From assembly GCA_003116975.1 (NCBI GenBank), contig BGKB01000048.1:279001-343000 (forward strand): a stretch of DNA of 64,000 bases, in the 5' to 3' direction. The position numbers and the translations under genes were made by a program. Shown piece after piece: positions 45 to 62,900 of this stretch; position 1 is the stretch's first letter; each line of letters begins with the position of its first letter. The notes under the pieces were generated by a model. It made no database searches and was not told where the DNA came from. It saw nothing but the letters and a program-made list of their open reading frames with translations. The stretch comes from Aurantiochytrium sp. KH105 (lineage: Eukaryota > Sar > Bigyra > Thraustochytrida > Thraustochytriidae).

Positions 45-1622
45 TTACAGACGCGCGCGGGAAAGGTTGCCAAACTCCTTGGCAGCGGTGGCCATGGACA
101 GACGCAGACCGGCATCGATCAAAACGTCCTCGCTGCCGCCAAGGATGCTGGCGAACTTGTACGTGCGCATGAAACGCTCCACGTACTTGCCCATACCGCT
201 CTGGGTGATGCCGCGACCACCAAAGATCTGCACGGCCATGTCAGCCACATCATGCGCCACGCGCGTGCACTCGTACTTGAGCAGGCAGACCTGGCCCGCA
301 AGCTTGGAGGACATCTCGTGGTAAGGCATGTTGCACATGCGGTACGTGATGTTCTCAGTCCAAGCCGAGACGGCCTCGACGCGCGAGATCATTTCGCCAA
401 TCTGCTTGCGGACGACGGGCTGCGAAAGAAGAGGCTTGCCAAACGCCTTGCGCTGCTGCGTCCAGCGCAGGCACTCGTCAATCATGCCGCGCGACCCGGC
501 GTTGATGTAGGCGCAGATCATCCAGCGCTCGTGAACAAAGTTGTACATGGAAAGCAAGAAGCCCATGTTCTCGCCGCCAATGAGGTTCTCGGCCGGGACC
601 TTGACGTTCTCAAAGGTAATGTAGGCCGTACCTGCAGAGGGAGAGTACGAAGTCTTGATCTTCTTGGTCTCGACGCCCTCGCCGCGCTCGATGAGCATGA
701 ACGAGAGGCCACCATGGCCCTCGCCGCCGGTGCGGACGAGGGTGGTAAAGTAGTGCGAATCGTGGCCGTTCGTGATCCACTTCTTGGTGCCGTTGACAAT
801 GTAGTGCGTGCCGTCGGCGGAGAGCTCAGCGCGGGTCTTGACGTGCGCCACATCGGAGCCAGCAAAGGCCTCAGTGATGGCGAGGCAAATGCGCTTCTCG
901 CCCGAAAGGACCTCCTTGGCGACCTTGTCCTTCATCCAGTCCGGGCCGAACTGAAGGACGGGCGGGAGGCCGATGGCCATGCCGGACCCGATGCCATCAA
1001 CGAAGCCAGGGCACGCGAGGCGGCCGACCTCCTCGTGGAGGATCATCTCGTAAAAGTAATCGAACTTCTCCTTGGGGAGACCGAAGAGCTCCTTGGGTGC
1101 GTATTTCATGGCGGCGCCGGGGCCCATGCGGCCTGCCAGGAGGCCGACATCACCCATGAGCTGGAAGAGCTCCTGCGTGGGCGCCTTGCCGCTCAACTCG
1201 CCCTCCTCGGCGGCGTCGCGAACGTTGTCGTGGAGCCACTGGCGGACATTGCGGCGGAAGTCGACGTGGGACTCGGTCCAGTACGGCGAATCAAAGCCCT
1301 GGAAGCCGGTGTTTTCGGCAAAGGGCAGGATGCTGAGCTCGCTGCGCTCGAGAGGCTTGGTGTCGGCCGACTCCTCGCCCGTGCCCTCGAGGCGGCCCAC
1401 GAGGAGCTTGGGGGCGTACTTGGCGAGGACCTCGTGCCTGTGGAGGCCGTAAAAGGTCTCGGTCACGTCCTGGCCGGCGTACTCGTAGAGGATCTCCTCT
1501 CCGCCCGGGTGGAGCATGGCGAACTTGCTGACGTCATAGACATTGCCGTCGATGACCAGCCACGCGTTTTCCTTGGTGCTGTGCTGCGCGAGCTCCTTCG
1601 TGCTCACGGTCTTGACGCCCAT
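45..1622 (-). CDS. Cytochrome b5-acyl-CoA dehydrogenase fusion, probably peroxisomal
   Basis: The 525-aa protein starts at an ATG. Residues about 5-80 are a cytochrome b5 haem domain, with axial His38 in an HPGG motif and the second His in GLHRHE (His61 or His63). The rest is a full acyl-CoA dehydrogenase, with the flavin-binding ITEAFAGSD segment and the QRKAFGKPL signature. Glu365, in HERW, lies where long-chain and isovaleryl-CoA dehydrogenases keep their catalytic base. The MCAD-type site near the C-terminus is Gly (LGGSED). The C-terminus SRARL ends in ARL, a PTS1 variant used by mammalian GSTK1. Cytochrome b5-fused dehydrogenases are known from fungi, where peroxisomal beta-oxidation is described. 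Peroxisomal acyl-CoA oxidation is therefore inferred, with the haem domain as a possible electron acceptor. The gene is divergent from the PP2C gene. Confidence 0.93.
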   Translation of the reverse strand: MGVKTVSTKELAQHSTKENAWLVIDGNVYDVSKFAMLHPGGEEILYEYAGQDVTETFYGLHRHEVLAKYAPKLLVGRLEGTGEESADTKPLERSELSILPFAENTGFQGFDSPYWTESHVDFRRNVRQWLHDNVRDAAEEGELSGKAPTQELFQLMGDVGLLAGRMGPGAAMKYAPKELFGLPKEKFDYFYEMILHEEVGRLACPGFVDGIGSGMAIGLPPVLQFGPDWMKDKVAKEVLSGEKRICLAITEAFAGSDVAHVKTRAELSADGTHYIVNGTKKWITNGHDSHYFTTLVRTGGEGHGGLSFMLIERGEGVETKKIKTSYSPSAGTAYITFENVKVPAENLIGGENMGFLLSMYNFVHERWMICAYINAGSRGMIDECLRWTQQRKAFGKPLLSQPVVRKQIGEMISRVEAVSAWTENITYRMCNMPYHEMSSKLAGQVCLLKYECTRVAHDVADMAVQIFGGRGITQSGMGKYVERFMRTYKFASILGGSEDVLIDAGLRLSMATAAKEFGNLSRARL

Positions 1623-9732: not shown

Positions 9733-12608
9733 ATGTCCGCGCAGGAACAGCTCTTACGGGTCAAGGCGCAACTCCTGCGCGAGCGCATGCGTCTTGAGCG
9801 AGATCGTGCATTTGAAACGCAAGGTGACGCCCGTTGCGAGAAGAGTGTTTTGGCACGACACGGACTTGCCATCGAGCCTAAATTCCCTCCCGCATCAGAC
9901 AAATCCTCCTTCTCCTCCGCTTCCTCTCGCTCAAACCAACATGATTCTCTTTCCTCGCACTCATCCTCGCGTCGACGCCATAATAGGGCTGGCTTGCCCC
10001 AAGAAGATGCATTGGACGAGCTCGACTCCGCGTTGAATGACGAAGACGAGTCTAGCAAAGCGTCAAGCATCAGCAGCTACATGTCAGACAAAAAAAGAAG
10101 GAGAAAGTACAGACGTTCTCGAACGCCAGACGCCAGGCAGCGATCACACAGAACTCGACACAGATCGAGACACCCACATGAAAGCTTGACGTCGCCCATT
10201 CAAGAGAACCCAATGATTGCCAGGGTTCGCTCTCAAATGCGCACGCAGCAAGCCGCAATGCTAGAGGTTCTCAGCGGTCTTGACAATCAGCTACAGGCGC
10301 AGCTCGATCTGAAAGACAGGCAAGAGTTCGAACACCGACTCGAGCAGCGCATCACCACACAAAACAAATTAATGCTGGCTGCCATCGAGCAACGACTTGC
10401 CCCAGTGCTTGCCTCTCACATGCACTTGCCCACACAGGAGCGAATGATTGCAGCGACGAGCCCCACAACGAACCTTTCGGAGCAAGACCAGCAGCATCGC
10501 TCAGGCCATTTCGCCTCGATCATGCATCAGAGCTCCAAAATGTCCAATAGCATGTCCGCCAAAACGGAGCATGGTCTCAGCAGAGCGTCAGAAGAGATGA
10601 GGACTGACATCACAAGTCCGAATCATACTTTGAAGGACAACAAAACGCAGCAACATGCTACGGAGAAAGAGAAAGAGGAACCTGCAAATATCTGGGAAGA
10701 GCTTCTTCAAGACGATACAGATTTGCTGCACATGAGCGACGACGAAGGTGACAAGGAAGAGACAGAAAAGCAAGAAAAGGACAAAGCCACTGCTGCTGCA
10801 GAGGAGAAAAAACGCAAGGCTCTCAAGGCGGCCGTTTTTGGAAGCGGGAGACCCATGTATCGTTGGCGGAAAGAAGGCATCGACACACCACCTGCGGACC
10901 AGGTTCTCAAGGGCAAAGCACTTTTTCGCAGCATCGTATGTCTCTTCATCGCCCTCGCCCGCATGAAGCGACATGCAATAGCACGACGCATGGCGCTGGC
11001 AGAGGATGACCGCAAGGAAATGGAAAAGGGTATCTTGTGGTTTGCAGACACGACTCGTTCCTGGATGGCTCAAGTGCTTGCCCTCCCGCTCGCTGACATT
11101 GTTGGAAAGCGAGATCTAAATCTCGACCCTAGCAATACAAGAGGCGCGCTTGGACAGAAACTCGGCAACGGATTCTGGCGTGCAAAACCGAAACGAAACG
11201 CGCCCGCTCCAATTACAGCAGAGACTATCATGAGCGATGTTGAACTCGCTACTCTACGACTCAAAGTTCGCGTCCGGGGCATCTTTGAGGCCTTACTTAA
11301 TTCCCTCGAGCACGAAAAGCCACCGCTGCCACGACCGGTCGTTGGGTTTTTGAGCAGACTTACGCTCGATGGCATGGTTTTCCCGCATAATTACCTGTTC
11401 GCCATGGAAGAGGAGGCCCTGGACCTTGGCTATGCGGGTTGCACGCGATGGATGATCAAACCTAGCACAAGTGGTTCTAGCGAGGCGGCACTCTCATCCA
11501 AGAATGCGTCTGACCAAGCGTCAGAGGAGTATATCCCAGCACCAGCAAAAGCCATGCAATATGACACATCACGCTCCAAGCTCATGCTCTGCACCTTTCT
11601 CTTTGTGCGGTGTCTTGTACCTGTTCTCTGCAGGCCATGGGAGTTGGGAGCCACAGCCAAGGCAGACAAGCGATCGCAAGCGAATCTTCTTGCTGTGGCC
11701 ACAATGGTCTACATCTTGACGCGCTCGTGCGTCGGTGGCCCTGAACAAGGCCAACCTGCCGAGCAGTACGTTCGGGAATCTGTGGACGGTGGAGCGCCGT
11801 CAGCAAAACTGGGCCGACGTGATAGTCTTCGACTCATTCGCCGTGCATCCAATGTATCCGAAATTGCTTCTGTGATTGCGAACGAGACGTCAAAAGCAAA
11901 GCCGCGAACACGATGGTTCTCGCGCGCAAAACCGTCCAAGAGCGCTGTCGCTCCTGAAGAAGACGATAAGAAGAACGCCGCGGACCTAGACGCCCAAGAA
12001 ACCAGGCCTAGTACTGAGATTGACCACGAACACACAAGCACGCTCAAAATAAGCAGTCAAATGGATGATGATGAGGGCGAAACAGAAGATAATGAGGCTG
12101 ACGACGACCCATCGCAGACTGTGCGCTACCAAGGACTTGAGCATTATCTTCCCGACCTCTTTCAGGATAAGCAGCTCATTGAACTTTTGCAAAATGAAAA
12201 ATTCATGGCAGAGCTCAAGCTTGTTTTCCAGAAATGTCTTTTGCGGCTTTTGCAAAGAGCTTTTCAGAATGCAGACGCGAATCAGCTTCCCGAAGCAGCC
12301 CTCGACCAGATCGAGGCCGAAATTGCCGAACTCATCACGCAAGAAGATACCATCGGCGTACGATCTGTCCTTCGCCGAAGGAATGATGAGCTTCTTGCAA
12401 GACAACAACGTCGCGTCGAAAAGGCTGTCATGGAGGAGAAACTTGCTTCGAGTGCTCAGGCCGCCGCAGAGGCAGAGAATGTTGATGCTCATACATCGGA
12501 GCAGGTCAACGATACCAAAGAGCGTCAAGGCAGCGTGGACGATGACAGAGAGGACTCGGAGCGCGGATCTGCGAGCGAGGATGAAGATGATGAAGAGAAT
12601 GACGACGA

Positions 12609-12641
<33 letters not shown>

Positions 12642-12879
12642 TGAGGAGGAGGAGGAGGAGGAGGAGGAGGAGGACGATTATGAGGACGAGCACGACAACG
12701 ATGATTACGACCAAGAGGATGACGATGACGAGCTTCAAGATGGTAAAGAAGATGACGATGAAGACGAAGAAGAGCGAGAGTTCAGCAGAATGAATCGTGA
12801 AAGTTTCGATGCATATAACGATGGCAGAGTGAGCGACGATGCCTACGAGGAAACAAGAAACAGCTCGAAAGACTATTGA
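9733..12879 (+). CDS. Large orphan protein with Ser/Arg-rich N-terminus and highly acidic C-terminus
   Basis: The protein is 1048 aa with no intron and no family I recognise. The first ~150 residues are a basic/acidic helix followed by Ser- and Arg-rich sequence with RRHRSR-like patches. Residues about 170-230 look helical and Gln-rich. Lys/Glu-rich sequence follows (about 290-370). A probably globular, helical part spans about 370-660, with GRPMYRWRKEG, ILWFADTTRSW and FLSRLTLDGMVFPHNY. A second helical block lies at 810-930. The tail (about 955-1012) is an almost unbroken Asp/Glu run encoded by GAC/GAT then GAG. No signal peptide or membrane segment is visible. A nuclear or cytoskeletal scaffold is possible but unsupported. 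It converges with the karyopherin gene, 167 bp away. Confidence 0.8.
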
Positions 12880-17136: not shown

Positions 17137-19362
17137 CTAGAGCATTTCGAGAATGAGGCTCTCGGTCACGAAGGCGGCGTAGAGTGCCATCATGGCAATG
17201 CCGAGCTTTTTGGTCATGACCCAGTTGCACCAATGAATGATAGAAACGACGGCTGCGACCATGATGAATAGGGTGAGAACCATGATGGTGATTCCATCTG
17301 AACTGATGAGAACTTTCTCGCCCGGGTTGACAATTGCTGTGTAAATGAACCAGGGCACGGGGAGACCAATAAGAATGTCGAAGATGTTCGAACCCACCGA
17401 ACTGGAGACAGCCATGTCTCCCAAACCTCGCTTTGCGACGGCGATACTTGACATGAGATCCGGGACACTCGTACCGGCGGCAAGCAAGGTGAGACCCATG
17501 ATAGGCTGTGGAATACATGCAAACTCACCAAAGATGGTTGCCATCCAGACCATGACGTAGGAAAGTAGTGCGATCCAAACGATACACATGAGAAAGGTGA
17601 GCATGTAGAAACGCTTAAAGATCGGTCGCCGACAGTCCGGAATGGTCAAAAACATACCCAGGCTCAAGGGAAAGGCCAGCGCCCACAGGAAGAGATCGAA
17701 AGGTCCGCCATCTGGGAGCTCAAAGGGGTTGCTCGGTTCATCGTCGTCGTCATCGTCATCGTCATCGTCATCGTATATATTGTGCGAATTGTTATTGTCC
17801 GCAGATGACCGCGTCGCCTTGACTGTTGTTTCTTGACGCTGGCGTTGCGCGGCTTCGGCTTCAGCAATGAGACCCTCGAGTTTGGGGTCCTCGGAAAGCG
17901 AGGAGCCGCGCAGCGAGAGGCGCACAGGCGCAACTGCGGTGGTCGACCGTGTCGGGCAGGGAAGCGCATACTGTGCAGCTTCTTCGGCGGTCATGTTCTC
18001 CACAACCTCGAGCATTTTCCAGTCCTCAGCGGTTGTTTGCGTGGCAACGTGAATCTTTTCGACAAAGGAAGCCATGTAGAGCCGGAAAACGCGGGCGACG
18101 CGGAGAAAGCGAAAGGCGCGCAGGGCGCGAAGGCCGCCAGAAAAGCTCGAGGAGGAAAGGATCATTTCGATGAGAATAAGCACGACGAGAGTGCCGTCGA
18201 ATGCATTAACTGGATTGTGCCAGTAGCCAAAGAAGGAGAGGGCGGCAATTTTGAGCGCCATCTCTGCAATGAAAACAGCAGAGCACCAGGAGTTGATCGC
18301 TTGGGTTGCGTTTGATTCACCATTGGCAACCTCGACAAAGATGACGACGATGTTGGCGATGATGACCATGTAGATGAAGTAGTTGAAGTAGTCGTGCTCG
18401 AGAAAATTCTCGAGACGGAGACGCCACCCGTAGCGCGGGGCTTTGGCGGCCTCCATGCGCGCTGTGACCCACTCTTCCAGGGCCTCATTAAAATACATGA
18501 CGGTAATGTACAAGCAGTACATGATGAGAAGCGCAACGGAGTCAGTGACGGCGATTTCCTGGTCAATGATGCACGTGACGAGCACCACGATCGAGATACA
18601 GTAGAAGACGCAGTCCCGCGTAAGCGGCCACCAACTCAGAGCGAGGTTGTTGGTAACGAAGGCGCAAGCGGCAATGACAAAGAGTACATTAAAGGTCGCG
18701 GAACCGACAATGGTGCCGAAGCCGATATCACTCTTGGCCACAAAGACGCCAATGATACTTGAAAAGAGCTCTGGGGCTGAACCGCCAGCAGCCATAAAAG
18801 TCGCTCCGGCCACATCCTCTTTGAGTTTGAGGTCCTCGCAGAGAGCGGAAAGGGAAGACTCAAAGTACTCGTCGCAGACGATGGCCAGTCCCATAAACAT
18901 GTAAAAGATGAGGAAAATGTGCACAAGGATGCCGCCCGAGTCCTTTTGCGTTTCGTCGAAAAAGTCGGGCGGAAACTCACCACTGCTTGAAGAGTCTGTG
19001 TCTCTGCACGAAGTCGAGTCACCGCTCGTTTCAAGATGTCTGCGGAGCGCGGTGGAGGTCTCGCTCCCAAGAATTTGTTCGATGGCGAGCATGACGCTTC
19101 CCGCGGGGAGGAGGGCAAAAATTGCGACGAGCGTGAAGAAAATGACTTGCATGCGCAGCAAATGCTTGCGCGAGAACCGGTGATGTCTGTGCCTTCTTGG
19201 CTTGGCCATGGTCCAAGACCGGTGTGGGCTGCCGCGTCGTTGTCGACGCGCAAGCACCATTTCGCGGGGGCTTGGTCTTTTCGCTGGTTTGCTGAGCATA
19301 AGACGCGCCTCTTGGTTTGCTGCGCGCTTGTGTGCCTCTACGTGAGAAGGAGAAGCAGGCAT
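17137..19362 (-). CDS. K+-dependent Na+/Ca2+ exchanger (NCKX/SLC24) with inserted voltage-sensor domain
   Basis: The product is about 741 aa from the ATG at 19362 (A at -3). The frame opens further upstream only through non-ATG codons. After a basic N-terminus and one hydrophobic segment comes the NCKX core. It has DFF, LAIVCDEYF and the alpha-1 repeat (GATFMAAGGSAPELF, GTIVGSATFN), and later the alpha-2 repeat (GLTLLAAGTSVPDLM, GDMAVSS, VGSNIFDIL). The ion-binding acids in SAPE, SVPD and NIFD are present; the last Asp is the residue linked to K+ dependence. The interrepeat loop contains a complete S1-S4 voltage sensor (18070-18399), and then an Asp run before alpha-2. The expected function is electrogenic Ca2+ extrusion at a membrane, gated or tuned by voltage. 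The gene is a single exon. Confidence 0.92.
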   Translation of the reverse strand: MPASPSHVEAHKRAANQEARLMLSKPAKRPSPREMVLARRQRRGSPHRSWTMAKPRRHRHHRFSRKHLLRMQVIFFTLVAIFALLPAGSVMLAIEQILGSETSTALRRHLETSGDSTSCRDTDSSSSGEFPPDFFDETQKDSGGILVHIFLIFYMFMGLAIVCDEYFESSLSALCEDLKLKEDVAGATFMAAGGSAPELFSSIIGVFVAKSDIGFGTIVGSATFNVLFVIAACAFVTNNLALSWWPLTRDCVFYCISIVVLVTCIIDQEIAVTDSVALLIMYCLYITVMYFNEALEEWVTARMEAAKAPRYGWRLRLENFLEHDYFNYFIYMVIIANIVVIFVEVANGESNATQAINSWCSAVFIAEMALKIAALSFFGYWHNPVNAFDGTLVVLILIEMILSSSSFSGGLRALRAFRFLRVARVFRLYMASFVEKIHVATQTTAEDWKMLEVVENMTAEEAAQYALPCPTRSTTAVAPVRLSLRGSSLSEDPKLEGLIAEAEAAQRQRQETTVKATRSSADNNNSHNIYDDDDDDDDDDDEPSNPFELPDGGPFDLFLWALAFPLSLGMFLTIPDCRRPIFKRFYMLTFLMCIVWIALLSYVMVWMATIFGEFACIPQPIMGLTLLAAGTSVPDLMSSIAVAKRGLGDMAVSSSVGSNIFDILIGLPVPWFIYTAIVNPGEKVLISSDGITIMVLTLFIMVAAVVSIIHWCNWVMTKKLGIAMMALYAAFVTESLILEML
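18070..18399 (-). other. Voltage-sensor domain (S1-S4) inside the exchanger
   Basis: This covers residues about 322-431 of the exchanger. S1 ends in an acidic patch (VIFVEVA). S2 has FIAEMALK, the Glu/Lys pattern of the charge-transfer centre. S3 has NAFDGTLVV with the conserved Asp. S4 runs GGLRALRAFRFLRVARVFR, with Arg at every third position six times (codons about 18129 down to 18082). The pattern is that of voltage-gated cation channels and of the SLC9C1 exchanger sensor. No pore helix or selectivity filter follows. Confidence 0.9.
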
Positions 19363-40998: not shown

Positions 40999-42390
40999 TT
41001 AGCCTGCAGTTTGTGCTTCATGCGAGGAGTCGTACCGCGAAGGACTCACGCCAGCAGGAAGAGGTGCCGAAAGTAGTGGTTCTTCCGAGGAAGGCATATT
41101 TTGTAGCGTCGAATGATGACCCAAATGTTCAAGATAGTGCATAAGCGAAGACTCAAAGACCGCATAGCCCAAGGTACAGGCCAAGGCTTGCCAGAGCGCA
41201 ACAAAGGGATTGATACCCGCGGGCTGCACACAAAGCGTGAGCCCAGCAACAACAGGCGGAAGCACAGCGGCAGCGGCGTGGCCAGCCCACCAAATGTACT
41301 TCACGCGACGCACCTCGGCCGAGTCACCCGGCGCGGGCTGGCGACGCCACCAATGCAAAAGACGCAGCACAAAAGTTCCGGCCATGCAGGCAGCAAGTGA
41401 GCTCATAAACAGCAAAAAATACCCCGAGCTAAGTGTAGTCTGCTCTCCGTCCGTGATCACGTCTGTAGAGAGCTTTACGGCCACGCTGAGCGTCAAGAAC
41501 GCCAGACCGAGGGCCCAATGGGTCGTCATATATCCCACGCCAGCAAAGGGGGACCTGCGCAGCGCGTTAAACTTGCGCGGTGGGACAATCGCAAAGTATA
41601 CGAGAGCATTTCCAAAATTCACCGCAATTGATAGCGTCATGGCCGCATAATATAGCGTACTCTTGTCCTCAACGTTGTGGTGCGAGGTCACTGCCGAAAG
41701 GACACTTTCGCCGAGCACAAGCATGATGAGGCTTGCGAGGCGGTTCTGCAGATGATCAATGTTCACCGGGAGACCCTTGTCGGCCAAAAAGTGCGCCCAT
41801 GTCTGTATGTACGGAAAAAGGAGCTCATATCCTGCGGTGCCAGCCAAAAGGCCTTGCAAAAGTCCATCCGATGCTCCCACGGCAATGCCGCAGACGAGGA
41901 GAATGACCGAGGGCAAAGTCTGCACGATGTCAACTTGCGCCTGCCGACGCGCCCGCGGCACCAACCAGTACACGATGACCAGCATGCATACGAGACTCGT
42001 GCGTTGGATGATGGAACCAATTGCAAAGCCCCAGCGCAAGTCGCTCGAACCTGTGTTGACCACCATCCCAGAGGTTCCAATCAGGTGCGTGAACATAAGC
42101 ACCGAGTGCACGAGCGAGGTATCAATGAATCTCGCCGTGAACAAGGTGTACTGCAGCCATGCAGTGTAGAACAGCGTGAACTGCGTTCCAAAGTCAACCA
42201 CGCTCTGTGCGAGGTCATAACTCGAGTCTTTCTGAAGGCTTTTCTTGAACCCATCGGCCCCGTTCGTGAAGGCGCTCACAAAGACGAGGTCCAAAAAGGT
42301 CTCCCACCACTCCTCCGCACGGCCCTCATACTCCTCGCCCCACTCCGCCGCAATACGGGGCTTGCTCCAGACGCGCCACACGTCCACCAT
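40999..42390 (-). CDS. LtrA-family multispanning membrane protein 1
   Basis: This 463-aa protein belongs to the low-temperature-requirement-A (LtrA) family. The diagnostic N-terminus is AEWGEEYEGRAEEWWETFLDLVFVSAFTN, where bacterial LtrA has WWELFFDLVFV. About ten hydrophobic helices follow. MLVLGESVLSAV with DHLQNRL upstream is the second LtrA signature. LtrA was named from Listeria growth at low temperature; its biochemical role is unknown. It lies 0.9 kb downstream of a paralogue in the same orientation, evidently a tandem duplication. Membrane location is not resolved: there is no cleavable signal peptide. Distribution suggests ancient transfer or wide eukaryote presence in protists. Confidence 0.9.
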   Translation of the reverse strand: MVDVWRVWSKPRIAAEWGEEYEGRAEEWWETFLDLVFVSAFTNGADGFKKSLQKDSSYDLAQSVVDFGTQFTLFYTAWLQYTLFTARFIDTSLVHSVLMFTHLIGTSGMVVNTGSSDLRWGFAIGSIIQRTSLVCMLVIVYWLVPRARRQAQVDIVQTLPSVILLVCGIAVGASDGLLQGLLAGTAGYELLFPYIQTWAHFLADKGLPVNIDHLQNRLASLIMLVLGESVLSAVTSHHNVEDKSTLYYAAMTLSIAVNFGNALVYFAIVPPRKFNALRRSPFAGVGYMTTHWALGLAFLTLSVAVKLSTDVITDGEQTTLSSGYFLLFMSSLAACMAGTFVLRLLHWWRRQPAPGDSAEVRRVKYIWWAGHAAAAVLPPVVAGLTLCVQPAGINPFVALWQALACTLGYAVFESSLMHYLEHLGHHSTLQNMPSSEEPLLSAPLPAGVSPSRYDSSHEAQTAG

Positions 42391-50978: not shown

Positions 50979-53900
50979 TTAATCCACAACTTCAATCTCA
51001 ATCTGAGCAGTAGTTTCCAAAGGCCCACCCTCTCCTCGATCGCCATGGTCTCGCAAAATAAGCGTAATTGTGCCGTATCTTGCAGCTTCGATGGAGGCAT
51101 CGAGCTCAAGCCGCAGCGTGCTGAGCACCGAGCTTAGCGCATCTTTTTCAGCTTCAAGGACATAGTCGCGCTCACCCTTGGAAACAATGGCAACGTTGTC
51201 GAGTGGTTCAATTCGAAGCTTGCCAATGTCGCTCGCGATAGCAACTTCGAGAATTGCGGTTGGAACCTCGATCTCGTCACTTACAGTCACGTCGATGTGC
51301 AAGGGAACCACCTTTGGCCCGCTACGGGACACGCGCACGCTTGTGCGCGAGAGTGTCAAAACAGGGACGCTGTTGACAGGCGTGACGAGCACGTCAAAGC
51401 TTTCGACGGTAGATGCCCCGCTAGAATCCACCAGCGTTGCAATGATGAAGCCCGCCCCGTTCGTGCCATCGATTGCCTCAAAGTAAACGCTTTGTAAGAG
51501 TACGTTCAGCTCCTCAAGCGTCCCGGAAACGCCCGCGGCGGCCTCTGTCCCGTCCTGAAAGACGATCCTGCCAAGCTCCGTTTCGATTTTCAAGGAGAAG
51601 AGCTCGTCGCTGCCGGCGTCGACGTCGACGAGGAAGAATGGTTGCTTCCGGGACACTTGGCGGGCCCCTGTGCGCTGATAAAGAGTATCGTACGGCGGTC
51701 GCGCACCAAAGAACAATGCTCCTCGCAGATTCACAAAGCCAGTGTCTGTGAAGCGCAAGTCCGCTGCAGTCGTTTCAAAGGCGCGCTGTGGTACAGCGCT
51801 CGATGAGGCGCTATTGAGCACCCAGAGCGCGTCCATTGCGTTGAAAACGAGCAAGTCCACGCCCCGCAACGCAGGATCGAGGGCTCCCGAAGGCGAAAAG
51901 ACGTGCAAGTGCGTGGGCATCGAGCCTTGGCTGCCAGGCAAAAGATCTGCAACCATGGTGGCGCCAAGAGGAGAAGATCCAGAGCCCACGGCAAAAGTCG
52001 TTCCATCCGGTCTTGTGGCTGTAAAAGATTCGTCAGTCCCTCCCACGCGCCAAAGCTCGCGACCGTGCGCGCCATCGACAGCCGTAAAGTACAATTGCTG
52101 GTTGTAGACGACAAGATCCTGTGGGTCGCAACCGAGCTCGCTGCGATCGCTGCGAATGTCCGTAATGTACCCTGTACCAAGTTCCGAACCATCAGACACC
52201 CAGATCTGGCGTCCATGAACTCCATCGCCAGCTGCAAAGGCGACAAAGTTGTCCACGAGATGAATGAGGTCTGTAGGCTCGCTCCCGACCTGATCACCTG
52301 TGCGTATGTCCAGCACCATATACGTTCCCGTGCCCGCGCTCCCCGTTCTCACCACAGACGGTCGAGCTCCAGTAAAAGCTGGGTCTCCATCCGAGACCCA
52401 GAGCTCTATGCCGTGCCATTCATCCTCGGCCGTGAAAAATAACGTCGATCCGACAACGGTTAGAAGTTGAGGGTCCGAAGACCCGGTTCCTGCCCACAGG
52501 TCCTGGACCATGCGCGTACCTTGTGGCGTGCCGTCAGAACGCCACAACTCCCGACCATAGAGCTCCGTCCAGGCCGCAAAGAAGATGTCTCCGTCAAAAG
52601 AGACGAGATCGCTTGGATGCGAGCCGTCACCGCCAGGAAGGACGTCGACCACCCGTTTCGTTCCTTCTGCGGTTCCGTCTGTCGCCCAAAGCTCGCGGCC
52701 TGCGTCCTTGAAGCATCCTAACGATCGTGAGCATGGTGTGCCGTCAGCTGCATCGGCCATGCAAATTGTCCCCGCGAAAACGGTTTCATCGAGCACACCG
52801 CCCGCAAGAACCTCCGGCGCAAGCTGGCCAGGGGATCCGGCCTCCTGTCTCGCGTCGAGGAAGACAGATGTCTCGTACGAATCCGCGAGCATGAATCGAT
52901 GACGCGTGGCGCCTTCCCATTGGTCAAAACTCCAACCGCAGAGAGATGCGTAGTAGCTGTGCATCTGACCGCTGCGCGCCTCTGCACGCGCGGTCGCCGG
53001 ACCGACGACAGCTGCTAATTCTGCCGTTGATGCCCAGTGATAGCCAGAAGGGCAATCGTAGCTCCCAAAACGATCAAAGGTGGTTTCCTTCGAGACAGCA
53101 AGCCAAATGCCTGGCACCGCTTCGAAAAAACCACCGCAGGTGTCCGTCTCCAGCATCCATGTCCAGTCTTTGCCGTCAGCAGCAAAGTAGACGAGACCAT
53201 CATCGTGCAGATGAAGATTGTCAATGTTTGCGCTTTGCGCGCCGGGCCGAATGTCTTTGATCAGCATTGTGGAGGCAAAATCTGCATCTGCGCGTCCATC
53301 CGAGCGCCACAGTTCTCTTCCATGAGTGCCATCCTCTGCGCTAAAGATGAATGTATCGGCGTCCAGAGCCGTCAGAGACTCAGGCTCGCTTGCATTGCTT
53401 GCAAGACTGTACCGCCAGGAAGGCTCATCGTCTGTTACGCGACCCGGGCGAACCACGAGTGAACGCCAAATGCCTGCGACGGGTTGTTCCAAACGCTCCT
53501 CGACGATTTCGCTCTCTGCGTCAGCGTTCAAGAGCCGTGACGGGCCGGACAGGTGAAGACGACCGCCCTCCGCCACTGTAAAGACACTATTGGCCCCAGT
53601 ACGTGTCATTGAACGAATTTCTGGGGCATCGTTCACTGCAGAGACGAGGACACTCCCCGCCATGCTTGCGGATGCGCCATCCTGATCTTCGATGACCACG
53701 TCGATTGTGTCGAGGCCAAACCAGTTCAACGGTGGGCTGTAAGAAATAAGGTCCTCCTCAAAGAGAACGTTAACGTCTCCAACAGGTCCGTAGAGGGTGA
53801 GACTCGAGTCGTCGCGGTCGACTGCGACAAAGAGCTTGCGGGAAGTCACATCCAGGTCAGAAATGTCAGGCTTGCCGTGCTCTGCCCGCAAGGTCACTTG

Positions 53901-56900
53901 TACGGCGTCTCCGTCAACGTCGTCGACAATGATACCGTCGAGATTGACTTGTGCGTCCTCTTCACAAACCCAATGACCGCTGTGCGCGTCAGACCGGAGA
54001 CCAACGCTCGGCGCGTCGTTTGTAGCACGAACTGTAATGTGAATCACCACCGAGGAGTACCGATCGTCCTCGACGTCGATGCCCCGGCTGCCGGTGGCCT
54101 CGGCAACGCGTAAAGAGAGGATTCCAAGGAAATCGTCCCCCAAGCGAACCTGGTCGGTCGACAGGTCTTCCAGATTTGCACTGATCATTGTAATATCTTC
54201 AACGCCTGACCAGTTCTCCTCCGGGACGTAAATGATGTGCCTGATAGCCTCCCGAACGGTACTCACACTCGCTGTAAAGGCGAGTACCTCGACCTGTCCT
54301 TTTGCCGCCGCGCCAACGCCTTGCGTCAGGTTTTCCAGATACTTTACCTCCACGAAATCATCTGGATCCAGCGACATGGTTCCATGACGTGCAATGCCGA
54401 TAAAGGCGACCTCCACCTTGTCTCCATCCGCATGCACAAGACTCAGCTCTCGATGGGGACCGGCCAGGAACAGCGGTTGATCTTCGCTCGTCGTCAGCAT
54501 GGCTGGGCCACTGTATGCTTGCGTGAGTTCGCCTGTGAACTGGGGTACGTCCTGCACCGGCAGAATGTGAAGTGGAATCATCTGCTCGTCACGAAGCGAG
54601 GCGACACCCATTACACCGCTGTCCATCTCGGTCGAGTCTTCTGCCACAATGCGAAGGTAATCCAGGCCATACCAATGCAGGTCTGGCCGATACACGATTG
54701 AATCTAGAATCAGGTTGCACTCGTTCGGGGACCCAAAGAACTCCACGAGTCTTCCATCACTTCCCGTGACAAAATTTGCGGCGCCGCGAGGTGACACGTG
54801 GAGACGGCCATTTGAGACGGTAAGCTCCACACGAAGTCTGCGCGAAGTCAAAGCAACGTCCAGATCGCTGTCCTGCACACGAATACCCGTGATGCGCACG
54901 TCCCCGTCTTCTAAGGCTTCGATGGGCGCTACGTCAATGATCGCCCCGCAAATGTCAAAGAGTGATACATCCTCCACACGTCGCGGCCAGGACCTGCGCG
55001 TGCTCTCTTGACAGGTTGTCTCGTTAGCATAGACTGCGCCGGGAACCTCAATTCGCGGGGGGTCTGTCCACGGAATGATGTTGACGATCGGTAGAACGCT
55101 CTCCTTCGTACGCGGCCCGCCGCTACCCACGCTACCAAGGTCGTCCGCGATGAAATGAATAGCCTCTGCTTCAGCCTCGTCATCCAACGCGTGCGCATGC
55201 GATGCCGGATAGAACAAAAGCGATGAGAGTGCTTGATTTACAAGGGACAGCGTGGAGTTTAGGACGACTGACCGCGACTTTGCCTCGTTAAGCACAGATA
55301 CCATACCGTGAACTGGCTCGATACGAACGAGGAACGGATCCGCGGCATCTACATCCACGTCGAGCACACGCACTGTTGACAGCGCAAGAGCGCCGTCCTC
55401 GTCGACACGCAAGGTGGCTGGATCTGGAAGCTGCCACACGGGAGCATCGTTGACCGCCTCGACCACAATTGTCAACGTCACCATATCGGTGCTACCGGCG
55501 GCATCCTGCACAGATATGATCACCACATCGATTCCCGACCAGTCACGTGTTGGCGTGTAGACGACGCCAGCATCTTGCGCTTCGCCCAATGCTTTGTTCA
55601 CTCGTCCAAGCTGGCCACTCACCCATAGTGTTGAGGACTCGGCTGAAACTTCAATACTCAACTCGGCGGCCGTGTGAGCCAAGCGCAGCGAGCCATATTG
55701 GCATGAAAAGGTCAGATGGATCACCTCAAAGTCCCCGTCAGCGTCTATAACAGTCATTGTTGGTATCATTAGAGGATGATCCTCTGCGGTTGTCAGAGTC
55801 GGTGTAGCTGTCGTCACGTAACGACCAGCGCCATCGTACTCGACCGTGGCGCCTGGAACAGACAAGAATGGCTCGTCGTTGACAGCTTCCACGTATACAG
55901 AGGCTGAGTTATAGACTATGTCTCCGCGTACGCTCCGCAACGTAAAGGTAATCTCGTCTGGTTGCTGCGTCTGTGTCGATGAGTAATCCGCGTTCGGTGT
56001 GTAAATTGCCTCTGCGAGAGCTCCGTTGACAGCAGCGACGGTACCTTCGAGAAAAAGACCCTGATCCGGAAGTGAGCTCATCGAAACGTTTGCGAAAACT
56101 ACTGGCACCTGGACAACTCCGTGGCTCGCGTAGGCTTCGAGTTGCACACTTTCATGCTCTGGGTAGTTATCGTAGCGAATAAGTAGACCAGGAAGCGCAA
56201 GACTGTCGTCCTCTCTGCAGTACCATGCATGCCTGTTCACAGGAAGTTCGAGTTCGGGGGCATCGTCGTTGGCGACGACAAGAAGCGGCACAGTGACACT
56301 GTCGCTCCCAATTCTGCCATCATCCCCACTATGGCCACCATCCGTCGCGATAATGTGAACAGATGCATGTCCACCGTTTCCAAACATGTTCTCGCTCGTA
56401 AACAAAAGCTGCTGGAACGCGTGGTTGACAGCGCTTACAGAACCTGTCCAGGACATCGAGCTTGCGTTCATTTGCTGAAAGTCTTGCAAAGCCACTTCTG
56501 CTGCCAATGAAAGCGTTCCGTTCGTCGCTAATAGTTCGATATGAATTGCTTTTGTACCAGCATCGACATCACGAATAGAGAGACCCGCAATTCGCTCTGT
56601 CGAGCCCTCGCGAACAGAGTAATCGTTCACCGAAAGCAGACGACCGCTCACTTGGTCTGCAGTCAAATGATTCTCGTCGAGCACCTGCCCTGGGACATGT
56701 AGAACTGGGCCATCATTCACAGCAGCAACATGGACGAGTTGCGTTGCAACCCGTGCTCTTCCTTCCAAATCGTTATCTTTCAGGACTTCAACTCGAACAG
56801 AGCCAAAGTCTCGACCTGCCTCTGAGTTCCAATTCTGATCAGGAAGGAAGACCAGGCTTTCCAGATATTCTTCAAGCAAGGAGGAATCAGCGAGTTGGAC

Positions 56901-59900
56901 GCTATAATTCTCCACGGCGTTTTGGCGCCCGGTGCCGCGCACACCGACGACACCGTGCTTGCTTTCAATGTGAACGTGTGCTCCCGTTATTCGTGATACG
57001 TTCTCTCCCACGAAATGCAGCGAAGCTTCAGGTTCGAGACCTTCTAATAGAGCACTGTCGACAATCAGGCTTGATGCAAAAGCTTGCGCCGCAGCTGTCA
57101 TGCGAATAGTCCAAACGTAGCCATCTTCCAACGATGGACCTTCCCGCTCAACAATTTCGACAAAGGACCCACCTACTGGCACAGGTGCGGCGTGCGGCCC
57201 GTGAAGTGTCGCATTTCGTACCAATGCAAGGTCCGCGAGCTCTTCAAAGACACTTTGTACCTCTTTTGCGCTTGCGTTGTACGACAGTACTTTGTCGTTA
57301 ATGCGGAATGAGCCTCCCAACCGATTGGATTCCTGCACAGGCCGCGCGGGAGTCCGATTGATGATGACATCGCATGCGACGCGAGCATTCGTTGCGCCAA
57401 AAAAATTCTCCTCGGAAATGAAGAGCATGGGCAAGTCCCATGGTGCCTTTGAAAAGGTGATCGTCCAAATGTTCCCGCCAACGGTGTTGGCCGCGCACCC
57501 CGAAGCGATGCATTCCCCTGATTCTTGACAAGAAACGTGCGATGAGCATGGAGTGCCATCAGAGAGGCACTCGCCTCTTCTGAACAAACATGATCCAGTG
57601 CCTCCATCACAGTCCGCGTCCGAAGAGCAGCGGTGAACGGTGCCACCCTGGCAGTGGCCAACGCAAAGATCGCAATGTGCACTTTTTGAGCAGAGCAAGG
57701 AGCTTGAATCGTACGCAGCAAGAACGGTTTTGCATTCGTAGGAGCATACTTCATCCGTCTGAGAAACGGAGACTGTGATTGGCTCAGTAAGAATTGATCC
57801 GTTCTGAGCTTGAGCGAGCAATGCGTTGATTTTCGCCTCGACCGACTCGCCTCGACCCGTGCCTGTAGCGTGCGTTGTACGCTCGCTCGTAATCGATGGC
57901 ACTGCGTTCGCGGCAATGCGCTCTGACTCTGCAACTGTGCCACCCCACGGAGTCAAGTCAATCGAAACCTTAAAGTGCCCGATGAGCACGCCTCCGTCTG
58001 CAGTCGTGCGAATGGCCTGCTGCATGTCGACGTGTCGGGCGAGTGTCCGCAACTCCAACGTAATGTTCTCGTCACGAAGCTCACCTAGCGGGACCCGATC
58101 AACATCGGTGACATGGAAAATCCCCTCGAGCGGGAGCGGCTGATCTTCGAGGATGCGGAGCGGCTCCGTTGGGCTTTGAGAGACGATTTGTAGTGGGTCG
58201 TCTGTTTCGGTGATGCTGATTTGTACTGTCAGGCTCGCCAGACGTTGCGTCGCAGCGCTCGTCACCGTCAGGATACCCATATCTTCGCCCGTGTAATGCG
58301 TGCGTGCCGCACGATACAAGACGTACGGGAAAATCTGTTGATTGAGACCCTCGCGAGTGGAGCGTACGCGCAGCATTTTGCCGTCCTCACTGACAGCAAC
58401 TTCGTCCTGACCATCCCATTCGTCGCGTAACGCCAGAGTCAATTTACCTCTCTGCACTTCGAGCGTGGCCTCCACCATCTCGCGGAAAGGTTCTTCGGAG
58501 ACGAGCCGGACCTCAGAAAGCAAGCTGACACTTTCTGACTCGGAGACGCTTATATCGCGATGCAGAGTGCCATTGACAAAGAGCAAGGGTTGATCGAGAG
58601 GCCGAACGTTCAGAAAGACTGTCCTTGAAATAGCTGGGACCTCTGCCAAGGACGAGTTGTGTCCGAGACCTTGCGTGAGATCGGCCGAAATATCCAGCTT
58701 CAGCTCAGCGACTCCCAAGGTAGCGCTACGGTACTGGAGATGGGCCAGAGCGCTGCGCACTTCTGTAAGGGTGCCCTTGAAGACGAGCGAAGATTCTAGT
58801 TGAGACCAAGCAGGACGCTCATTTGCCTCTGCAATACTTCTGTGGAGAAGTCGATATTCCGGAAGAATCCAAACAAAGCCTGCCGAGACTTGCACCGACA
58901 ACCGAAGCGGGATGTCCTCATCGCCAAAAACGATCGCCTCAATTTGCCCAGGTTTTGATCCAAAGACAAAGACGTCCAGGTCTTCGCGCAGGGAACGAAC
59001 TGACGACGCAAGTTGCAGTCGCACTTCAGGGGTTCTGGGCGCCACGTCGACGAAGACACTCTCATGCAAACCCACTTCGTCATCTGACGTCAGAGCTGTG
59101 GCTTCAAAGTTGATGAGTGCACGCCCGTACCAGCCGCGATGCCCGCTAAGACGAAGGCCTTTCACGGACTGCTGCAAGACGTCATTGAGCTCTGGCACAG
59201 TGCCCTGAAACCGAATCTTGTTCCGGGCCATGTGCTCGACCCAGCTTACACCCGTTGTTTCAACGTCTAACTGCAATTCGGGCTCGCTCTTCACACGCGA
59301 CGTCGGGAACTTGAGCGCCGAATCCACGTGCACGCCTTGGCCCTCGAGCAAGGATCCGTTCACGCCAACGGGGAACGGAAGACCACTTGCAGCACGGCCA
59401 AGATCAATGAGATAAAGAACGAGGCCAGCTTCAAGGTCCGGGCCCGATGCGAAAGACAATATCTGAGGAAGAGTGATGTCAGTGTCAGCCGCGTGCGTAA
59501 AGGTGATGCCATCGAGTGCGAGACTACCGCTCACTTGGTTTGCTGCCACTTCTGGGACTGGGGACGCCTTTCGAGCCTGCAAAAGTCCAATGTATAGATC
59601 AGGGGTGTCCACAGCGACGAGATGGTGTTCCTCAATCTCAAGCAGTGGGAGGGCGCTCGGAGCATTGTGGAACTCGATAAACCATGTAAAGGCACCGTCC
59701 GCGTTTGCTACGCAATTCGATGCGTCACACACGCCCGAAGACAAGCAGTCATCATTTGTTGCGCATGGATTACCAGAGGACAAGCATTCCCCGGTTTTTC
59801 CAGTTGCAGGAAGCAGACACGATCCGAGACAGTGCGAATCTTGAAAGCATCGTTTGTCTTGAGCCTCTGAACAGAGTCCCACACAAACGTCACAGGCAGA

Positions 59901-62900
59901 GTCGAAAGTGCACAGGGGACCGGCCGGATACTCTTCGGAAAATACGTTGCAATCGTGCTCGCAAATCTGGTCGCTTCGACTCACGGAAACGTACATAGCG
60001 GTAGAATCAAAGGATTCGAAGTGAGCTTCCAGTCCTTGCGAGGCCGTCTGAAGCATTGCGTTCACAACGGACTCAATGCTGTCGCCAGGGCGAGACCCAC
60101 GCGCGCTGTGCACGCGCTCCTCCGCGATCGTAGCCACCGCTGCGTGATCCACCACATTAGACACAACGCGACTGCCCCCGAGACTACGGAGGTCGAGCGC
60201 GAGTCTAAAGCTACCTTCCACAGGGCCCATGACCGCGGTGCTACGCAAAGCAAGAACCATGTTCTGATGGCGCGCGCTTGTAATCACTCTCTGCACCGCG
60301 GCAACGCCTTGACCTTTGGTAATTTCCGAGATTTCTACACGGACCTCAGGCACCGTGCTGTTAAGCACGAGCGCTTTGAGCAAGGGAATATCCCCAGCAG
60401 GACGAACAAAAGTTACGGTCCATGCGTTGAAAACTTCTGCGTCCTCACTGGCAAGGAGCGCTTGCTCGTCAACATGCACGAGATGGACAGTTGGCAGTGC
60501 TTCCAAGGCGCGCTGGATGAAGACAGCGGGCGTGTCGAACGAAAGTGAAGTCGAGACCCTTGAGCCCAGCTGCAGAGTAAAGTCGCCTTCGAGCTCCAAT
60601 TCATCGACACCTCCAGTCCTTGAGATGGTCACATCGATCGCGTCCGATGGATCGATTTCGCTCTCCAAAACAAGCGCAGGCCCAGGCGAAGTTCGGAAGA
60701 AGGTAACGGCCCACTCTAATCCATAGGCTCCGAGCTTCGTTCTCGACACCTCGACCTGGCCCACCGTGCCGAGCGCGGCCAGCATAGACTCCAGTGATGC
60801 CCCAAGGCTCGATCCAAGTTCTTTTGAAGCTGAATCAAGGGCTGCGCGATCAATGTCCCCTGTTGTCTCGCCATCGTAGGAGAGCTTAAAAGTCGCGGGA
60901 GCGGCGGCTTCATTTTGGGTCGCTGCCAAGCGAACGAGATGGACATCGGAGAACACGGGTCTTCGAACGACAATCTGTTGAACTTCTGGTTGCGCGCCTG
61001 CGGGATCGGCGGTGACGGTGAGCTGCGCAAACTCCGGAGCTCGCAGATCGTCCTCGAGGGCCACAACGCCAGCGAGACTGACGCTCGAGCTTGGCACCAG
61101 GGTCGGCGCGAAAGTCAGAACATCAGCCTGCAGTCGGCGGAGAGAAATGCCTGTACCGACTCCCGCCACTGTCACCGAAATCGTGGACACAGAACGATGC
61201 TCATGTTTGTCCTGAACACTTGCCTCTAGATTGAGCGTCCCGGTGAAACGGCTTGGCGCGGTGTAGAGGACTCTCTTGAGCTCCAGATTAAGCTCGGAGA
61301 GAAGACCTCGCAAGATTACGTCGCCGCTGTCAGAGCGAGTGATTCGAATATTTCGCTCTTCTGCAGGGCTTCCCGCATAAATTGTACCCGTCGGAACGCG
61401 AAGCGTTACCTCGTAAGCATCTTGCGAGGATGATGTTACATCTGCATCATGAATGTAAAAACCTCCAAGAACCAGGGTCTCGCCTTCCATTACCTGCAGA
61501 GTGTGGTTCGCGGGAATATGCCGAATTCGCGGACCATCGTGAACCGCTTCGAATTCTATGCGCAACTCCACACGATCCTCATCGGTACTCGCAAGTCGTG
61601 AGACAGAGCACTGCAGCGATGCATTACCGAACGTGTCGGCTTCCGGCGCAATGACCAGAGCACGGAGAGCAGCATTTACATCCGAAGCGCAGCCGACAAA
61701 GTCAGCGCTTTCACCGAGCTCCGCACGAACCCCCGGAACGCTCTTGGGCATGGTGAATTGAGTCGAAAGTCCATTTATCGTGCTCAATTGAACATGAACG
61801 AGCCACGCTTCATTGTTGCATCCATGTAGCTGCGAGGCCGTATCAACAACTTGAAGTCCGGAAGCAACGCCAAAGTCCAATTTGCGATCTTCAAAGCCCT
61901 GAATCGCCAACGAGACCTGGTCTGACCACGTAGGTGTACTTTCCGGCCCTTCGCAAAGGATCTCGAGCTTGAGTGCCCGAACAGAAACCCCATTTACATG
62001 AATGCGAATGTGGTCTCGACCACACCATGACGATTGGGGCGGCTCATAGAACAGCGGCGCATGGGTTGCAAGAGCTTGGATCACTTGAGGCTGTGAACCT
62101 TGAATGAGGACTCCTCCGTCCATCGTTTCAGTCGCCATCACACCGTGGATCTCGCTCTGATTCTTCCAAAGTAGTCGAGCACTGTCCCGCGCTGCAGCAA
62201 AAGTTACGGACATGAGCGCTGACGTTGGTTCACCGCGATCTCGGGTAAGTGCGAAATGACCAAATGCCGCAGAGAGATCGATCAATCCTGAGGACAACGA
62301 GGCTGATGTCAGAGCAGCCGCGTTGTTCTCGACACCAAGGGCTGAAAATGCCCACACTGGTTCCACAGTGACGATCTCCACGGAGATAGCAAATAGTGAC
62401 TCGTCTTTGCCATTGACATAAGCTGAAATTGTGTCTGAGTCGGTGCCTGCGGTGTATTTTATCTTCGAAACGCAGTGAGCCAATTGAATAGGGTGTCCAG
62501 CCGGAAGGGAGAGAAGTATACGGTTGCTTCTAAGGCCTTGAATGTTCACAGCCGCGCTGCAAAGACCTTCAATCGAAAAGCGACCGCTCCCGCAAGAAAT
62601 CACGAGTTCAAGATCTTCTGTATCTGTGGCGCCGGAGGCTACCCGCACGTCAACCATGTCGGTCATCATCATCGACGCCTTGGCCTCTAAGTGTTCTTTG
62701 CCTTGCGAACTGAAGATGTGCGCTTCAAAGACGCTAGTAACCTTATTTTTCTCCTCGGGAAAGACAAAGACCTTGCGCGCTTCCAACTTTGTCGTTCCGC
62801 ATGCTTTGGCAACAACACTGACATAGACCTCAGCAAAGGCGAATGCACGATCAGCGCCAAATTCATGAGGCCGGTTCGACAAAACTTGCGTTTCCTGTAG

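Follow-up and report, generated by a model that had tools for sequence, protein, structure and literature searches.

The window analyzed here, a stretch of 64,000 nucleotides, contains on its minus strand an uninterrupted open reading frame (ORF) of 741 amino acids that runs from ATG to stop at positions 17137 to 19362, with the ATG in the context ACCAAAATG. The encoded protein carries a voltage sensor (VSD) between the two halves of a cation exchanger of the CaCA superfamily. Its features, in window coordinates, are as follows.

17137..19362, minus strand: whole ORF, 741 amino acids, intron not required (ORF translation; second allele of equal layout)
19063..19167, minus strand: TM0, N-terminal hydrophobic segment, residues 66-100, putatively signal- or anchor-like (hydropathy)
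18472..18942, minus strand: first exchanger half with alpha-1 repeat, residues 141-297, GGSAPELF, E198 (Pfam PF01699, NCBIfam TIGR00927, alignment)
18055..18402, minus strand: VSD, S1-S4, residues 321-436 (Pfam PF00520 at 324-429; phmmer to Cav3.2 domain II)
18325..18393, minus strand: S1, about residues 324-346, N337, E344 (hydropathy, Cav3 alignment)
18229..18291, minus strand: S2, about residues 358-378, charge-transfer center F364/E367/K371 (Cav3 alignment, residue check)
18151..18216, minus strand: S3, about residues 383-404, N386, D389 (Cav3 alignment, residue check)
18070..18138, minus strand: S4, about residues 409-431, six arginines from R412 to R427 at every third place (Cav3 alignment, residue check)
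17728..18054, minus strand: post-sensor loop, residues 437-545, 11 consecutive Asp, presumably on the cytosolic side (sequence)
17140..17727, minus strand: second exchanger half with alpha-2 repeat, residues 546-741, GTSVPD with D635, GSNIFD with D662 (Pfam PF01699 at 586-733, alignments)

By hydropathy, about 28 residues lie between the end of TM5 and the start of the VSD, and about 120 residues, mostly polar in sequence, between the end of S4 and the next hydrophobic segment. The protein matches four Pfam families at E values up to 1, and the Na_H_Exchanger, cNMP_binding (CNBD) and phosphatase families are absent from these four. The two matches other than Na_Ca_ex and Ion_trans (E values of 0.036 and 0.071) fall below their own cut-offs, and both are located on the loop that follows the VSD. 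Elsewhere in the window, an ORF at 45-1622 (minus strand) encodes an acyl-CoA dehydrogenase fused to a cytochrome b5 domain, a 4337-residue ORF at 50979-63992 (minus strand) has modest matches to bacterial Ig-like (53.2 bits) and cadherin-like (35.6 bits) repeats, an ORF at 40999-42390 (minus strand) belongs to the LtrA family (bacterial low temperature requirement A; 91.3 bits) on this eukaryotic contig, and a 1048-residue ORF at 9733-12879 (plus strand) has no Pfam match at an E value of 1e-5.

Membership in the CaCA superfamily follows from the two stretches of Na_Ca_ex (PF01699), which score 174.8 bits against a cut-off of 24.9. The best NCBIfam model is that of the K+-dependent Na+/Ca2+ exchangers, TIGR00927, at 396.4 bits with its best stretch at residues 119-303; the curated cut-off of this 1209-position model, 710.1 bits, was reached by none of the 10 proteins scanned, including the one described here, and the highest score among them was 462.3 bits (L014, see below). 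TIGR00367 gave 295.0 bits, above its cut-off of 179.65, the NCX1 model TIGR00845 70.4 bits, and the calcium/proton exchanger superfamily model TIGR00846 24.3 bits. The ion-site acids E198 and D635 are both present in the alignments, and D662 of GSNIFD occupies a column in which NCX1 carries Asn. Asp575 of NCKX2 reportedly confers K+ dependence (work by Kang in 2005), and D662 is its putative equivalent, with an identical spacing of 27 residues. Among solved structures, those nearest to the exchanger part by sequence are NCLX and then NCX1. The first-pass annotation had described an NCKX-type exchanger, and the model scores together with D662 bear this out. The exchanger part is NCKX-like and not NCX1-like; we refer to it as NCKX-type, and K+-dependent transport (4 Na+ exchanged for 1 Ca2+ and 1 K+) is predicted.

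The segment between the exchanger halves matches Ion_trans (PF00520) at residues 324-429 with 68.6 bits (cut-off, 25; E value, 6.2e-19), so that the profile search proposed in the first-pass annotation recovers S1-S4 in the segment where they had been claimed, flanked on both sides by Na_Ca_ex. The match spans positions 2-109 of the 241 in the profile, which correspond to S1-S4 without S5-P-S6, in agreement with the claim that a pore is absent. The individual residues are also as first described: S2 reads VFIAEMALK (F364, E367, K371), S3 contains NAFD (N386, D389), and S4 presents R412, R415, R418, R421, R424 and R427. When the protein was shuffled 20,000 times, six R/K residues at every third place never arose. 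Our results confirm that one ORF encodes both an exchanger and a complete voltage sensor. The canonical voltage-sensor residues are intact, and movement of the S4 charges is predicted.

In phmmer searches of solved structures, the VSD was closest to domain II of the T-type Ca2+ channel Cav3.2, followed by sodium channels. The E value against 9ayg was 7.8e-29 for the whole chain and 1.5e-11 for the second-domain stretch alone, with about 35% identity over 115 residues; "domain II" here denotes the second of the four matches along that chain. Within the genome, the top-scoring VSDs are located in ORFs of about 1800-2280 residues with four Ion_trans matches each and are 25-35% identical to this one. 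In a tree of 21 rows, the VSD groups loosely with four-domain channels, at their domains II and IV (support, 57/88). We do not take this position as proof, as 13 of the 18 inner branches have weak support and the branch leading to the VSD is long. A recent foreign origin of the VSD was considered and set aside; GC3 is 0.70 in the VSD and 0.60-0.68 elsewhere in the gene, which is no clear sign of such an origin.

Several other loci with Ion_trans matches were noted. A 478-residue ORF (L037:1442-2878:-, C109) has a VSD-only match at residues 345-443, near its C-terminal end, and may be Hv1-like. A 321-residue ORF (L036, C38) has an S1-S4-type match, and directly downstream on the same strand is an ORF that opens with a K+-filter-like TVGYGD stretch; the two may perhaps be parts of a single channel gene that is interrupted by an intron or a frame change. 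At L034:725-3310:- and L035:1695-4343:+, partial Ion_trans matches are joined with cyclic-nucleotide-binding domains.

The gene families examined in the 76-Mb assembly are mostly paired, as in an uncollapsed diploid, and the gene described here has a second allele on contig C242 (L013:3843-6065:+) that encodes 740 amino acids, 98% identical and of the same layout, one Asp shorter in the Asp run of the post-sensor loop. The two contigs align collinearly across the gene and its flanks, with 83-96% identity in the 9.4 kb that we compared. Between the alleles there are 54 synonymous and 17 nonsynonymous changes (dN/dS, 0.09; the Asp codon found in one copy only is omitted from these counts). The VSD has four synonymous changes and one nonsynonymous change, I401V in S3 (ratio, 0.074), and the linker and VSD together have five and one; dS is 0.051 in the VSD versus 0.112 in the whole gene. 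The least constrained part is the N-terminal 140 residues, with a ratio of 0.26. Binomial tests against the site fractions gave a p value of 1e-20 for the whole gene; the corresponding values were 0.012 for the VSD alone and 0.003 when the linker was included. Purifying selection between the alleles is thus observed, and the result for the VSD, based on five differences, is in the same direction as that for the rest of the gene.

The genome contains 50 matches to PF01699 and 13 CaCA allelic gene pairs, grouped by eye, of which one is CAX-type and one NCX1-type. In a Pfam scan that covered both alleles of the present gene and a single allele from every one of the 12 other pairs, a VSD was found in one of the 13 pairs, and 9 of the 12 others had Na_Ca_ex only. 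By position, an Ion_trans match lay within 6 kb of 4 of the 50 PF01699 matches, namely the repeats in this gene and in its allele. Three of the other exchangers carry additional domains: an NCKX-type protein (L014:675-2984:+, C23) has EF-hands between its two halves, an NCX1-type protein (L018:1165-3966:-, C140; 681.9 bits, just above the curated NCX1 cut-off of 679.85) has Calx-beta domains in that position, and a more distant exchanger (L027:785-2689:-, C11) has EF-hands before its only recognized repeat. With EF-hands in the first, Calx-beta domains in the second and a VSD in the protein described here, the CaCA loop seems to host sensor domains, the one in this gene being a voltage sensor.

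We also scanned 87 prokaryotic or viral-contig relatives, comprising the best 80 of at least 551 bacterial and archaeal loci and 7 loci from IMG/VR; a second IMG/VR scan gave three loci on contigs already among those seven, outside the set of 87, and three other IMG/VR scans yielded no locus. An ORF of 264-412 residues matching both exchanger halves was present at 86 of the loci, and none of these 86 had a VSD match. A search for SLC9C1 in the genome, in which the 20 Na_H_Exchanger matches were compared with 150 of the 151 Ion_trans matches, gave no pair within 6 kb.

No NCKX/SLC24 member is known to have a VSD in its loop, as the first-pass annotation had also stated, and open PMC full text yielded no NCKX or NCX protein with a VSD among the matches listed. 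The architecture may be present, unremarked, in subscription papers, preprints or sequence-database annotations. No VSD in the NCKX/SLC24 loop is described in the passages considered from PMC9820825. SLC9C1 was presented in 2023 as the only known VSD-regulated transporter, with a coupling of VSD and transporter apparently unique to it (PMC10620092). The proteins named as having VSDs in the passages considered from two reviews are voltage-gated channels, phosphatases, proton channels and the sperm Na+/H+ exchanger (PMC13095418, 2024; PMC10651576, 2023). An account of the Phytophthora zoospore proteome reports VSD-cyclases, and the word "exchanger" is absent from its main text (PMC12223298).

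The presence of an intact sensor inside a complete exchanger leads us to propose, with a probability of about 0.6, that this protein is an NCKX-type Ca2+ exchanger whose transport cycle is under the control of its built-in voltage sensor; the gating, its direction and the membrane concerned are predictions from sequence. The four VSD helices are located in the loop between two five-helix halves, and, because their number is even, both ends of the VSD should be on the same side and the second half should keep its topology. The membrane potential would move S4 through the center formed by F364, E367 and D389, and this movement could reach the exchanger via the short TM5-S1 tether of about 28 residues, via helix packing or via the post-S4 segment, thereby locking or releasing the exchange cycle. 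A channel-like S4-S5 lever is unlikely, because about 120 mostly polar residues separate S4 from the next hydrophobic segment. An S4-S5 linker is likewise missing from SLC9C1, where an intracellular helix connected to S4 holds the transporter back until the membrane hyperpolarizes (PMC10620092). Release by hyperpolarization would protect against reverse-mode Ca2+ entry, and release by depolarization, the other option, would let the cell recover faster from a Ca2+ spike. Four-domain channels and IFT46 are encoded elsewhere in this genome. The presence of IFT46 makes a cilium likely in this organism, and electrical signaling and a cilium are consequently both plausible settings for the exchanger; the role in flagellar or wounding signals suggested at first pass is conjectural.

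We consider it unlikely that the VSD is silent with respect to voltage and has a role in structure, targeting or partner binding (e.g., to a channel or the cilium) in an exchanger that works like other NCKX proteins. Such a role would be consistent with the long, mostly polar stretch that joins the VSD to the second half, with the targeting signals held by the NCKX loop in animals (PMC9820825), and with the existence of VSDs that do not gate, such as those of CNG channels, which have a VSD although they are not voltage-gated (PMC6052114). However, all six S4 arginines and the charge-transfer center are kept, with I401V as the single replacement between the alleles, and a silent module would need neither. 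Location in an intracellular membrane (of a vacuole, acidocalcisome or similar), where the VSD would read the potential of the organelle, appears quite improbable. NCKX5 is intracellular in animals (PMC9820825), and the plasma membrane could rely on the remaining 12 CaCA gene pairs, but we noticed no feature in the sequence itself that points to an organelle, and the signal- or anchor-like TM0 fits either location. It is very doubtful that the VSD itself conducts, in the manner of Hv1 or as a gating-pore leak, and so couples a leak of protons or cations to Ca2+ exchange: isolated VSDs, including that of sNHE, can conduct, but gating-pore currents are associated with the loss of S4 charges (PMC10651576), whereas the arginine ladder here is gapless and the nearest relatives in solved structures are Cav/Nav VSDs. 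An artifact, in which the halves were joined by misassembly (a concern raised at first pass) or splicing removes the VSD stretch from the mature transcript, is scarcely credible, because the layout, the VSD junctions and collinear flanks recur in two alleles located on different contigs, with a reading frame open throughout both, GTRAGK donor-like sites in the ORF only at about nucleotides 382 and 1834 (the VSD starts at about nucleotide 960) and coding selection in linker plus VSD.

If the proposed voltage control of the exchanger is correct, transporters acquired voltage gating on more than one occasion, the second case being in an unrelated fold. We think this probable: an NCKX-type exchanger would have taken a Cav-like VSD into its regulatory loop, a second and independent origin of a voltage-gated secondary transporter. 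In this protist, Ca2+ extrusion, and not only Ca2+ entry, would be under direct electrical control, and Ca2+ removal would be tied to the electrical state of a cell that also encodes four-domain channels. The protein would be a comparator for how S4, in the absence of an S4-S5 linker, controls an alternating-access machine. It would also suggest that the CaCA loop can generally accommodate sensor domains (EF-hand, Calx-beta, VSD).

Among known systems, NCKX/SLC24 proteins share with this protein the two alpha repeats with GGSAPE and GTSVPD, the acids E198, D635 and D662, and TIGR00927 as best NCBIfam model, and differ from it in that its loop holds S1-S4. NCX1 and L018, with Calx-beta domains, and L014, with EF-hands, are alike in having a sensor domain inserted between the halves, but these should sense cytosolic Ca2+, whereas the exchanger described here should sense membrane voltage. 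Domain II of Cav3 is the closest solved VSD by sequence, but in our protein S4 is followed neither by an S4-S5 linker nor by a pore, and the S5-P-S6 that follows S4 in voltage-gated ion channels is absent. VSP/TPTE and Hv1 likewise have a VSD without a separate pore domain; unlike VSP/TPTE, this protein lacks a PTEN-like phosphatase, and unlike in Hv1, the VSD is not alone, as two exchanger halves are encoded in the same ORF.

SLC9C1 (sNHE) resembles the protein in combining a secondary transporter and a complete Cav/Nav-like S1-S4 in one chain without a channel pore, and its S4, with six or seven charged residues (PMC10620092, PMC6052114), is comparable in charge count to the six arginines found here. 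SLC9C1 has the NHE fold, with a CNBD and a VSD that follows the transport domain, whereas the present protein has an NCKX-type CaCA fold with the VSD between its halves and neither an NHE domain nor a CNBD. The joining of exchanger and voltage sensor in this protein is a combination independent of SLC9C1.
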